In this document: one piece after another, positions 16,818 to 20,763 of the stretch | Numbering within the stretch: the first letter of the stretch is position 1 | Layout of the letters: the number at the start of each line of letters is the position of its first letter | Assembly: GCF_034661235.1 (NCBI RefSeq) | Contig: NZ_CP141059.1 | Coordinates: 2,727,501-2,791,500, forward strand | Source: Nocardioides bizhenqiangii | Lineage (GTDB): Bacteria > Actinomycetota > Actinomycetes > Propionibacteriales > Nocardioidaceae | Length of the DNA stretch: 64,000 nt | Direction: 5' to 3' | Made by a program: the position numbers and the translations under genes | Notes under the pieces: model-generated | The model's input: only the letters and a program-made list of their open reading frames with translations | Database searches by the model: none | What the model was told of the DNA's origin: nothing

Positions 16818-16882
16818 CACATTTTCCTCGCCAGCCGGCAGTCCCGGTGCGACGATGGAAGGCACCCCAGGAGGGATGCCAC

Positions 16883-17317
16883 ATGCTCCAGAAAATTTCC
16901 GTGGCCCTCGGACTAGTGATGGCTGCCTTGCTGCTGGCCGCACCGGCGGCCCACGCCGAGGACGAGATCACCATCAGGATCGCCAAGCAGGCCAGTCTGG
17001 GAGCCGACGGCAGGGTGATGATCACCGTCTTCGTGCGGTGCGGACCGCTGCCCGGTGCGGAGGACTTCATCGAGGCGCACGCCGGCGTCGGTCAGGCGAG
17101 GACCGGTGCGGGTGGCGAGGGCGGGCTCGACGGCACCGTCGTCTGTGACGGGGTGGAGCGTGTGCACACGGCGCACTTCTCCCCGTTGGACGGGGCGTTC
17201 CGGCACGGGCCGGCCGTGGCGAACGTCTCGATCTTCGCCTGCCGGCTGGTGGGCGACGACCAGGTCTGCTTCAGCGCCAACACCTCGCGCCGCATCATCA
17301 TCACCGGCCGGCGGTAG
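16883..17317 (+). CDS. Small secreted protein, 144 aa
   Basis: ATG 16883 is preceded by AGGAGGGA at the right spacing. Residues 1-25 form a signal peptide (MLQKISVALGLVMAALLLAAPAAHA) with an AHA/ED cleavage site. The mature part has four cysteines (RCGPLP, VVCDG, FACRL, QVCFS), enough for two disulfides, in a probable beta-rich domain. A longer frame reaches back to 16847 but lacks a ribosome-binding site. No family recognised. GC-rich hairpins directly downstream can end the transcript. Confidence 0.75.
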   Translation: MLQKISVALGLVMAALLLAAPAAHAEDEITIRIAKQASLGADGRVMITVFVRCGPLPGAEDFIEAHAGVGQARTGAGGEGGLDGTVVCDGVERVHTAHFSPLDGAFRHGPAVANVSIFACRLVGDDQVCFSANTSRRIIITGRR

Positions 17318-17321
17318 TCGA

Positions 17322-17360
17322 GCGCGCGCTTCGCGCGCGGGGCTTCCGCGCTTCGCGCGG
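17322..17360 (+). terminator. Two short GC hairpins after the secreted-protein gene
   Basis: GCGCGCG-CTT-CGCGCGC (17322-17338) and CCGCGC-TTC-GCGCGG (17346-17360) lie 5 and 29 nt after the stop. No T tract is present; in actinobacteria such stems alone often serve as terminators. Confidence 0.55.
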
Positions 17361-18019
17361 GTTGGGTTGGGTGGGTTATCGCCTAGTTGGGTGTGGCGGG
17401 CGGTGCGGTGGCCTTCTGGTGAGGGACGGGACCCCGAGCGGGCTGCAAACCGTGGCCTGCCGGCCTGGATGTGACACGGGCTGGATGTCCCCTGGCATGG
17501 GAAAGGGTGGATGGCGTTCCTGCGACAGGGCGGACGAAGAGAGGCCGGCAGGCCCCGACTTGCCCGCCCGGGGTCCCGCCCCGCACCGGCCACCGCACCG
17601 CCCGCCACTCCCACGGCTCAGTGGCGTTCGGGGTGGATGGGTTTCCCTGTGTCGGACGGCCGCTCGTGTGGGCGAGGACGACCGAACCCCGTGGTGGGTC
17701 CGTCCCTCCCAAGGCGCCGACCCGGATGACATGGGTGAGCCTCATCCACCCCGCCCCTCGAGCCGTGGGGGTGGCGGGCGCGGCCGACTTCGTGCGGTGC
17801 GGGGCGTGGGGCCCGGCGGGCAAGTCGGGGCCTGCCGGCCTGTGCTGATGGCCCCTGTCGCAGGAACCTCATCCGGCTTTCCCATGCCAGGGGGCATCCG
17901 GCCCGAGATGTGGGTCAGGCCGGCAGGCCACGGTTTGCAGCCCGTCGGGGCCCATGCCCCGCACCGCCCCCGACCGGCCGCGCCCGCCACACCCACCAGG
18001 CGACAACCCCCACACATCC

Positions 18020-18036
18020 CCGCCGCGAAGCGGCGG
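18020..18036 (-). terminator. Hairpin downstream of polA
   Basis: CCGCCGC-GAA-GCGGCGG, a 7-bp stem with 3-nt loop, 37 nt past the polA stop and mirrored by the hairpins at the other end of the long inverted repeat. Confidence 0.5.
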
Positions 18037-18072
18037 AGAACCCGCGCGCGAGCCCGCGGCAAAGACGCAGGA

Positions 18073-20763
18073 CTAGTGCGCGGCCTCGTGCCAGCTCCTG
18101 CCCGTCCCGACCGAGACGTCGAGCGGGACGGCCAGGTCGGCGGCGCCGCCCATCCGCTCGCGGACGACGGTCTCGAGCGCGTCACGCTCCCCCGGAGCAA
18201 CCTCGAACACGAGCTCGTCGTGCACCTGGAGCAGCATCCGCGACCGCAGGCCCTGCTCGTCGATAGCCTGTTGCGTGTGCAGCATCGCGACCTTGATCAG
18301 GTCGGCGGCGGACCCCTGGATCGGAGCGTTGAGCGCCATTCGTTCGGCCATCTCGCGCCGCATCCGGTTGTCGCTGGTGAGGTCGGGGAGGTAGCGACGG
18401 CGGCCCATGATGGTCTCGGTGAAGCCGGTGCGGCGCGCCTCGTCGACCACGCCGGCGAGGTAGTCGCGGATGCCGCCGAAGGTCTCGAAGTACTCGTCCA
18501 TCAAGCCTCGCGCCTCGGCCGGCTCGATGCCCAGCTGCTGGCCCAGGCCGAACGCAGACAGGCCGTAGGCCAGCCCGTAGTTCATGGCCTTGATCTTCGC
18601 CCGCATCTCGGTGGTGACGTCGTCGGCCGGGACGTCGAACACCCGCGACGCGGTGGTCGAGTGGAAGTCGCGGCCCGACCGGAACGCCTCGATCAGGAGC
18701 TTGTCCTCGGAGAGGTGCGCCATGATCCGCATCTCGATCTGGCTGTAGTCCGCGGTCATCAGGGACTCGAAGCCGTTGCCGACGACGAAGCCCTCACGGA
18801 TCCGGCGGCCCTCCTCGGTGCGGATCGGGATGTTCTGGAGGTTGGGCTCGGTGCTCGACAGCCGGCCGGTCGCGGCGATCATCTGGTTGAACGTCGTGTG
18901 GATACGACCGTCGGACTGCACCGTCTTGAGCAGACCCTCGATGGTCTGGCGGAGCCGGCTCACGTCGCGGTGCCGCAGCAGGTGGAGCAGGAAGGGGTGC
19001 TCGGTCTTGACGTAGAGCGCCTGCAGGGCGTCGGCGTCGGTGGTGTAGCCGGTCTTGGTGCGCTTCGTCTTCGGCATGCCGAGCTCGTCGAAGAGCACGA
19101 CCTGCAGCTGCTTCGGCGAGCCGAGGTTGATCTCCTTCCCGATCACCGCGAACGCCTCTTCGGCTGCGTTGCGCACCTCGTCGCCGAAGTGTCCCTCGAG
19201 CGAGGTCAGGTGGTCGAGGTCGACCGCGATGCCGGTCTGCTCCATCCGGGCCAGCAGGTGCACCAGCGGCAGCTCGACCTCGGTCAGCAGCCGCGAGCCC
19301 CCGGCCCGCTCCAGCTCGCCCTCGAGTGCCGTGGACAGATCGATCACGGCGCGGGCGTAGAGCATCGCCGTCGAGGCGGCGTCGGCCGCTCCATCGTCGA
19401 AGAGCGCGCCCTGGTCGCTCTCTGCCTCGCCCTTGAGCTCGCGCCGCAGGTAACGCAGCGTGAGGTCGGCCAGGTCGTAGGAGCGCTGGTCGGGGCGGGC
19501 GAGGTAGGCCGTGAGCGCGGTGTCGCTCACGACCCCGGCGAGCACCCACCCGTGCGCCGCGAGCGCGAGCTCGGGACCCTTGGCGTCGTGGAGGACCTTC
19601 GGCCGGGCCGGGTCGGCCAGCCAGCCGGCCACCGCGGCCTCGTCGTCGGGACCGAGGCCGGTCACGCCCACGAAGGCCGCCTGGCCGTCGGCGACCGCGA
19701 AGCCGAGCCCGTCGACCGATCCCGTGCCGGCCGCCCAGCTGCCGCGCACGTGGAGGCCCACCACCTGGTCGCCGAGGCCATCGAGGAAGTCCTTGACCTC
19801 GCCGTCGACCAGGGTGCGGCCGGCCAGCTCGAAACCGCCCTCCTCGATCGGCTCCTCGTCGGCCAGCGTCTCGATGGTGCGGGTGCGGAGCTCGCCGCGG
19901 AACTCGAGCTCGTCGAAGAGGGTGAGCGCGGCCTGCCGGTCCCACGGCTGGAGCACCAGCTCGGTCGGCCGGACGCCGAGGTCGAGATCGGTCACCAGCG
20001 CGTTGAGCCGGCGGTTGCGGATGACGTCGCCGAGGTGCTCGCGAAGCGCGTCGCCCTTCTTGCCGGTGATCTCGTCGGCGTGGGCGATGACGTTGACGAG
20101 ACCGTCGTAGGTGTTGAGCCACTTGGCGGCGAAGCCCTGGCCGACTCCCGGCACACCCGGGAGGTTGTCGGACGTCTCGCCGACGATCGCGGCGAGCTCG
20201 GGATAGCGCTCGGGCGGCACGCCGTACTTGTCCACGACCGCCCCGGGGGTCATCCGGGCGAGGTCGGAGACGCCGCGCATCGGGTAGAGCACCGTCGACC
20301 GGTCCGTGACCAGCTGCAGGGAGTCGCGGTCGCCGGTGAGGATCAGCACCTCCATGTCGGCGGTCTCGTCTGCGAGCGCCTGGGTGACCAGGGTCGCGAT
20401 GATGTCGTCGGCCTCGTAGCCCTCGGCCTTGAGATAGGGGATGGCGAACGCGTCGAGCATCCGCTCGATCAGCGGGAGCTGGCTGCTGAACTCGCCCGGG
20501 GTCTTGTTGCGCTTGGCCTTGTACTCGGAGTACTCCGCCAGCCGGAAGGTCTGGCGGGAGACGTCGAACGCGACCGCGGCGTGGGTCGGCTGCTCGTCGC
20601 GGAGCACGTTGACCAGCATCGAGGTGAACCCGTAGACCGCGTTGGTGTGCTGCCCGGTCGCGGTCGAGAAGTTCTCGACCGGGAGGGCGAAGAACGCGCG
20701 GTAGGCCAGCGAGTGGCCGTCGAGGAGGAGCAGGCGCGGGCGCACGTCGGGAGACTCAGGCAC
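18073..20763 (-). CDS. polA: DNA polymerase I
   Basis: 896 aa, normal for actinobacteria. The 5'-3' exonuclease domain (about 1-290) has LLLDGHSLAYRAFFAL, EGYEADDIIATL and TGDRDSLQLV. The central 3'-5' exonuclease-like domain (about 310-480) has no DxE catalytic motif where one would be expected (VDGLGFAVADG), so proofreading is probably absent, as in other actinobacterial PolA. Polymerase motifs are A MTADYSQIEMRI (about 668), B KAMNYGLAYG (about 721) and C QVHDELVFE (about 845). It processes Okazaki fragments and fills repair gaps. The start is GTG 20763, 6 nt after a TAGAGT box, hence leaderless. Its 3' end abuts the long inverted repeat. Confidence 0.97.
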   Translation of the reverse strand: MPESPDVRPRLLLLDGHSLAYRAFFALPVENFSTATGQHTNAVYGFTSMLVNVLRDEQPTHAAVAFDVSRQTFRLAEYSEYKAKRNKTPGEFSSQLPLIERMLDAFAIPYLKAEGYEADDIIATLVTQALADETADMEVLILTGDRDSLQLVTDRSTVLYPMRGVSDLARMTPGAVVDKYGVPPERYPELAAIVGETSDNLPGVPGVGQGFAAKWLNTYDGLVNVIAHADEITGKKGDALREHLGDVIRNRRLNALVTDLDLGVRPTELVLQPWDRQAALTLFDELEFRGELRTRTIETLADEEPIEEGGFELAGRTLVDGEVKDFLDGLGDQVVGLHVRGSWAAGTGSVDGLGFAVADGQAAFVGVTGLGPDDEAAVAGWLADPARPKVLHDAKGPELALAAHGWVLAGVVSDTALTAYLARPDQRSYDLADLTLRYLRRELKGEAESDQGALFDDGAADAASTAMLYARAVIDLSTALEGELERAGGSRLLTEVELPLVHLLARMEQTGIAVDLDHLTSLEGHFGDEVRNAAEEAFAVIGKEINLGSPKQLQVVLFDELGMPKTKRTKTGYTTDADALQALYVKTEHPFLLHLLRHRDVSRLRQTIEGLLKTVQSDGRIHTTFNQMIAATGRLSSTEPNLQNIPIRTEEGRRIREGFVVGNGFESLMTADYSQIEMRIMAHLSEDKLLIEAFRSGRDFHSTTASRVFDVPADDVTTEMRAKIKAMNYGLAYGLSAFGLGQQLGIEPAEARGLMDEYFETFGGIRDYLAGVVDEARRTGFTETIMGRRRYLPDLTSDNRMRREMAERMALNAPIQGSAADLIKVAMLHTQQAIDEQGLRSRMLLQVHDELVFEVAPGERDALETVVRERMGGAADLAVPLDVSVGTGRSWHEAAH

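Follow-up and report, generated by a model that had tools for sequence, protein, structure and literature searches.

What kind of sequence is the long palindrome that lies between a small gene and polA in the window (the whole 64,000-nucleotide stretch of Nocardioides bizhenqiangii DNA analyzed here)? Long palindromes are usually unstable in chromosomes, and an earlier note, made from the letters alone, had described a nested inverted repeat of approximately 740 bp at 17319–18061. We confirmed this repeat and its symmetry center at 17691.5, but the two longest exact mirrored blocks proved to be 29 nt (17439–17467/17916–17944) and 27 nt (17542–17568/17815–17841) instead of the 28 and 26 nt given before. 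Further exact blocks of 15, 15, and 12 nt mirror about the same center, and one of 17 nt mirrors about 17691.0. Direct copies of GGCCTGCCGGCCT (17454 and 17829) alternate with reverse-complement copies (17542 and 17917), which reproduces the spacing 88-287-88. The short hairpins reported at the outer ends were found on both sides, the right outer one being imperfect in the window copy, and the recognizable ends of the element lie at approximately 17323 and 18059. Within these ends the element consists of two palindromic units, each of which is also self-closing and which, arranged in inverted orientation, make up the long palindrome. The parts of the window copy and its flanks are listed below, where G000 denotes the window's own genome (one contig of 4,546,893 bases, 4.55 Mb) and G142 a second species.

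16847–17317, plus strand: small flanking gene with a signal-like N terminus and without a Pfam family, with its stop 5 bp ahead of the element
17323–17339, no strand assigned: outer hairpin of the left terminus, with a stem of 7, a TTC loop on the plus strand, and the 13-mer CGCGCTTCGCGCG
17346–17360, no strand assigned: inner hairpin of the left terminus, with a stem of 6 and a TTC loop on the plus strand
17388–17619, minus strand: hairpin unit A, which is related to the reverse complement of unit B
17443–17465, minus strand: invariant core of unit A, outer-side strand, identical in 14/14 units of G000
17544–17568, minus strand: invariant core of unit A, inner-side strand, from the core comparison of G000 units
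17620–17759, no strand assigned: middle segment, 140 bp, itself foldable, with a 30-bp stretch (87%) in common with G142
17760–17995, plus strand: hairpin unit B, the part in common with G142
17815–17839, plus strand: left strand (25 nt) of the invariant core of unit B, identical in 14/14 G000 units
17918–17940, plus strand: right strand (23 nt) of the invariant core of unit B, identical in 14/14 G000 units
18020–18036, no strand assigned: inner hairpin of the right terminus, with a stem of 7 and a GAA loop on the plus strand
18041–18059, no strand assigned: right outer terminal region, an imperfect hairpin in the window copy and a perfect one in some other copies
18073–20763, minus strand: flanking polA, with its stop approximately 13 bp from the element

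The small secreted-type gene also adjoins polA in the related genome G102, and it is not beside polA in G142 or G127.

In silico folding, one of the checks proposed in the earlier note, gave RNA folds of −599 kcal/mol for the plus strand and −586 kcal/mol for the minus strand against shuffle means of −416 and −402 kcal/mol (z −20.6 and −30.5, respectively), and none of the 20 shuffles of either strand equaled the native value. An assembly artifact is unlikely and was rejected, because seven differing copies of the element lie within one contig and a related family is present in G142. Nor is a protein gene supported: ORFs traverse the region in several frames, yet the changes track base pairing. 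The earlier statement that the element holds no recognized gene stands in the tests made here.

A search of the genome returned seven full-length copies, six on the plus strand (at 389.8k, 2689.8k, 2744.8k for the window copy, 3321.6k, 4076.4k, and 4528.0k) and one on the minus strand (at 867.5k); apart from the window copy, they are named by position as c0390, c0867, c2690, c3321, c4076, and c4528. Identity to the query is 86 to 94%; every copy matches the query's reverse complement as well, at 74 to 77%, and the cores of the copies are 87.5 to 97.0% identical in pairwise comparison. Outside the seven copies, the search of G000 at E ≤ 0.001 gave nothing above 37 bp; the one match of 37 bp (G000:C1:437898) falls within an ORF and was discarded. 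The terminal-hairpin 13-mer CGCGCTTCGCGCG occurs 15 times genome-wide, and all 15 occurrences fall within the seven copies.

Each copy has two inverted hairpin units of 228 to 251 nt (approximately 235) around a middle segment of 138 to 141 bp, and is bounded in 7/7 copies by 60-bp terminal inverted repeats that are 76 to 88% identical and consist of short hairpins, the inner one and often also the outer one. The suggestion that an unnamed palindromic element is present here in two inverted copies was borne out: unit B can be aligned with the minus-strand reading of unit A, and it is the pair of units that recurs seven times. Mean identities are 77.8% between A and B units (49 pairs), 93.1% among A units (21 pairs), and 93.7% among B units (21 pairs). 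In all seven copies, the full-length RNA fold is better by 52 to 89 kcal/mol than the sum of the two local hairpins and the middle segment. By contrast, the proposal of a nucleoid or replication landmark beside polA did not hold, since the other six copies adjoin unrelated genes and, among 15 other genomes in which approximately 900 bp at the polA end were read by eye, only G142 has a related element there.

The fold is kept while the sequence turns over between close species. We tested pairing in 20 units (14 from G000 and six from G142) at 36 pairs taken from an RNAalifold consensus, that is, in 720 cells, with the structure derived from the same alignment. Pairs were formed in 97.9% of the cells (shuffle mean, 86.9%), and sliding the partner by one to three columns lowered this value to 34.5 to 45.7%. 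Both-sided changes were found in 69 cells compared with a shuffle mean of 23.9, and 0/500 shuffles reached this number; two other measures did not exceed those of the shuffles, namely how many pairs had a both-sided change (10; 337/500 shuffles as high) and how many further pair types occurred (459/500 as high). The paired changes keep the stem pairing; they fall in about three lineages (A units, B units, and G142) and so amount to few events, and conversion from arm to arm could be another source of them. All 14 units of G000 have the same sequence in two core strands, of 25 and 23 nt.

Paired changes and an invariant core are what speaks for large structured RNAs or 3′-UTR elements, which would be transcribed, act as terminator, mRNA stabilizer, or regulator, and be kept at gene ends by selection. 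Strand asymmetry points the same way in G000, where G-U mismatches outnumber A-C mismatches in 14/14 units, and in 17/20 units of the two species the better fold is that of the forward strand; against this, G-U exceeds A-C in only 1/6 units of G142. The units within one genome are near-copies, so that neither the mismatch counts nor the fold counts are independent, and the strand evidence is weak. The element also has no Rfam family: one match was obtained, with E 0.075 and 28.2 bits against a cut-off of 83. We regard an RNA function of this kind as possible but unlikely, also in view of the positions of the copies described below.

The terminal hairpins have a strand preference of their own. 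Among the perfect ones (stem ≥6) of the seven copies, the left ends carry TNC loops on the plus strand in 14/14 cases and the right ends GNA loops on the plus strand in 12/12; this count of 26 leaves out four shifted registers among 30 rows (loops CTT in three and AAG in one), and the copies share common descent, so the cases are not independent. The middle base of the loop takes all four values, and there are five kinds of stem. Elsewhere in the window, GNA or TNC loops were present in 4/61 such hairpins, and at seven other gene ends of the window with a hairpin behind them, the best hairpin (stems of 6–15) had a three-base loop in none. The left ends of the G142 copies carry a TGC-loop hairpin with a stem of 3 or 5 bp in 5/7 cases, with none in L050 and L051. 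In several copies a T-rich spacer follows the terminal hairpin, and from this shape, a hairpin and then a T-rich spacer, the ends of the element may stop transcription. A scan of 16900–18500 in the window gave no terminator-like site, which makes this step weak, and no promoter-like site, which argues against a transcribed RNA.

The copies are concentrated behind genes. Among the 14 large-family copies of G000 and G142 (the four G142 elements that have just the 130-bp block were left out), nine or 10 begin no more than 12 bp from a stop codon. The nine are the window copy, c0390, c0867, c3321, L045, L046, L048, L049, and L051; the tenth, L050, lies 3 or 16 bp from the stop depending on where its end is set. 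The distances are 15 bp for c4076 and 23 bp for L047, whereas the genes on either side of c2690 and of c4528 apparently both have their upstream ends toward the copy. By a crude gene call of the window, 4.3% of the intergenic bases fall in the 12 bp that follow a stop; because this call overstates intergenic space, 8.5% and 13% were tried as well, and the tail probability for 10/14 is 2e-11 at 4.3%, 1e-8 at 8.5%, and 8e-7 at 13%, and for nine instead of 10 it is estimated to be roughly tenfold larger at 13%.

Corresponding sites in relatives are mostly empty. In G102 the same small gene and polA are separated by 7 bp between their stops, without the element. The other six G000 sites were read by eye in G142, G127, G102, and G226 (24 site-by-genome comparisons), and no palindromic element was present in 22/24; in the two exceptions, G142 has its half copy (c0867 site) and G127 has a different palindrome (c3321 site). 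Some of the empty sites are weaker because the gene on the other side differs, namely c0390 in G102 and G226 and c0867 in G102. Five of the seven G000 sites are free in G142; conversely, five of the seven G142 sites were queried, and the four that were comparable with G000 are all free there. Since matching sites in relatives mostly lack the element, the copies were probably gained. The sites beside polA and behind a chorismate-binding gene are occupied in both G000 and G142, and the junctions at polA differ between the two. Occupation of the same two sites in both species would agree with a selected RNA, but two copies stand in front of genes, the gene neighbors of the copies differ, and close relatives lack the element.

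Two other kinds of sequence were seen at such sites. At the polA 3′ end of G188, an IS110-type transposase gene (PF01548, PF02371; L060, 3031–4263) is located where G000 and G142 hold palindromic elements. In G226, short tandem repeats of the type GAACCGTGCGGGTTCGT are present at two sites (L138 and L159) that are occupied by palindromes in other species.

The family of G142 consists of six full copies (approximately 600 bp each) and a single left half (337 bp); a further four matches span 127 to 130 bp. The four short loci (L186–L189) represent another, shorter palindromic repeat (177–243 bp aligned), so that the 130-bp hairpin occupies two different outer frames, which indicates a modular family. 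In the large G142 copies, the left hairpin is unrelated to that of G000, and the local unit alone is conserved. A search of 215 genomes of the genus gave matches in 35 with the G000 query and in 93 with the G142 query (the query's own genome counted); with two candidates scored for each genome, no clear relative was found beyond G000 and G142. The matches listed outside these two genomes were short (approximately 25–103 bp), the best having E values of 2.9e-6 and 4e-7. A covariance model of the unit found G000 and G142 but 0/14 other genomes tested; blastn against plasmid and phage records gave no match, and the exact core pattern was absent from viral contigs. In other genera, the core pattern gave four contig stretches that share 22 to 44 bp with the element, look coding-like by eye, and were rejected. 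The G127 palindrome at the c3321 site, beside glf, is a different multi-palindromic repeat (L144, G127:C148:4823–5284, at approximately 166–462; the contig ends inside it), and it was rejected as a family member because it has merely 29 to 33 bp in common with the G000 and G142 families.

The copies look mosaic. Among the informative sites, 183/325 pairs are incompatible with one tree; as a PHI-like test showed no neighbor effect (p 0.47), exchange is inferred from the overall incompatibility, to which repeated mutation could add. The right arm of c4528 carries the complement of the usual left-arm loop, together with a tandem copy of its own right end, and c0867 and c2690 have 32 bp (28 identical) in common outside the terminal hairpin. 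Together, the incompatible sites, the c4528 arm, and the common flank suggest recombination and copying with flank. By eye, the 32-bp flank (L039, right of 5196; L040, left of 4760) may be former coding sequence.

Mosaic copies, together with unit trees that group by species and the occupied polA and chorismate-binding-gene sites in both species, would also fit old loci that were fixed before the species split, were homogenized by gene conversion, and now move little or not at all. Two ancestral fixed loci would explain the common sites as well, which counts against mobility. The five G000 sites that are free in G142 and the four comparable G142 sites that are free in G000 argue against such loci, as do the differing polA junctions. 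Moreover, the polA-site copies of G000 and G142 are 65.4% identical to each other, no closer than to other copies (65.2–67.4%). The polA tree itself leaves G000, G142, and G102 unresolved (support 0.32 and 0.12). We consider fixed ancient loci improbable.

The flank common to c0867 and c2690 is unlike exact transposition and also speaks against mobility. This flank, with the arm exchange and tandem right end of c4528, would fit accidental inverted duplication and illegitimate recombination with neither a specific mover nor a function. Such an origin is very improbable given the defined ends, the GNA or TNC loops in 26/26 terminal hairpins, the invariant core, and the clustering behind stop codons.

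These results favor, with a probability of roughly 0.62, the reading that the window element belongs to a family of non-coding palindromic mobile repeats that is lineage-specific and modular, putatively non-autonomous, and of the BIME or MITE kind. The folded hairpin, as single-stranded DNA or RNA, would be recognized by some enzyme, and copies would be pasted mostly behind genes, where harm is small, perhaps because the terminal hairpins and T-rich spacer stop incoming transcription; exchange among copies would keep the set of one genome alike while species diverge. A Y1 transposase (Y1_Tnp, PF01797) was absent from 8/8 genomes, including G000 and G142, in a search that was positive in 5/14 control genomes. 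No autonomous partner with matching sequence was found in G000, although very short common ends could escape the search, and no target-site duplication was recognized by eye where flanks align.

It is conceivable, though doubtful, that the element moves or is copied as folded single-stranded DNA; it would then be a symmetrical, hairpin-ended mobile DNA landing behind stop codons without a Y1 transposase. Two asymmetries indicate the same strands: the GNA loops of the terminal hairpins, on the plus strand at right ends and on the minus strand at left ends, and the mismatches of the G000 units, which are G-T and not A-C. The strand so marked on each side is the one that runs out of the element at its 3′ end, which recalls a miniature linear DNA having hairpin-rich, telomere-like ends.

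With a palindrome of approximately 0.7 kb kept in seven places, it can be tested how such hairpins are tolerated and copied in a genome, whether gene ends are preferred landing sites (compare the IS110-type gene at the polA end of G188), and which enzyme, if any, recognizes such hairpins without a Y1 transposase. Most likely, the family is an unusually large, lineage-specific, modular non-autonomous mobile element that settles behind genes, and it resembles several known systems in part. REP, BIME, and REPIN sequences are gene-free intergenic palindromic repeats that form inverted pairs of hairpin units at gene ends and are moved by RAYT. The present family shares with them the inverted pairing of palindromic units between genes (units A and B) and the gene-end position, but it is about ten times longer and has symmetrical terminal inverted repeats; we do not file it under BIME/RAYT because the defining transposase was sought in the genome and not found. 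MITEs are multi-copy, non-coding, intergenic sequences with terminal inverted repeats, all of which applies here, whereas no target duplication was recognized by eye, no autonomous element was found, and the whole window element is palindromic. BOX, EFAR, ERIC, and RIME are modular intergenic palindromes with exchanged modules, positions near stop codons, and a possible role in ending transcription. The present family is like them in each of these respects and differs in its size and nested double hairpin; they are set apart by description, Rfam being the sole sequence comparison. Finally, the present family has in common with telomere palindromes of the Streptomyces type that the hairpins are GC-rich and carry loops of the GNA type on the strand running outward to its 3′ end, but it occupies seven internal places in the chromosome.
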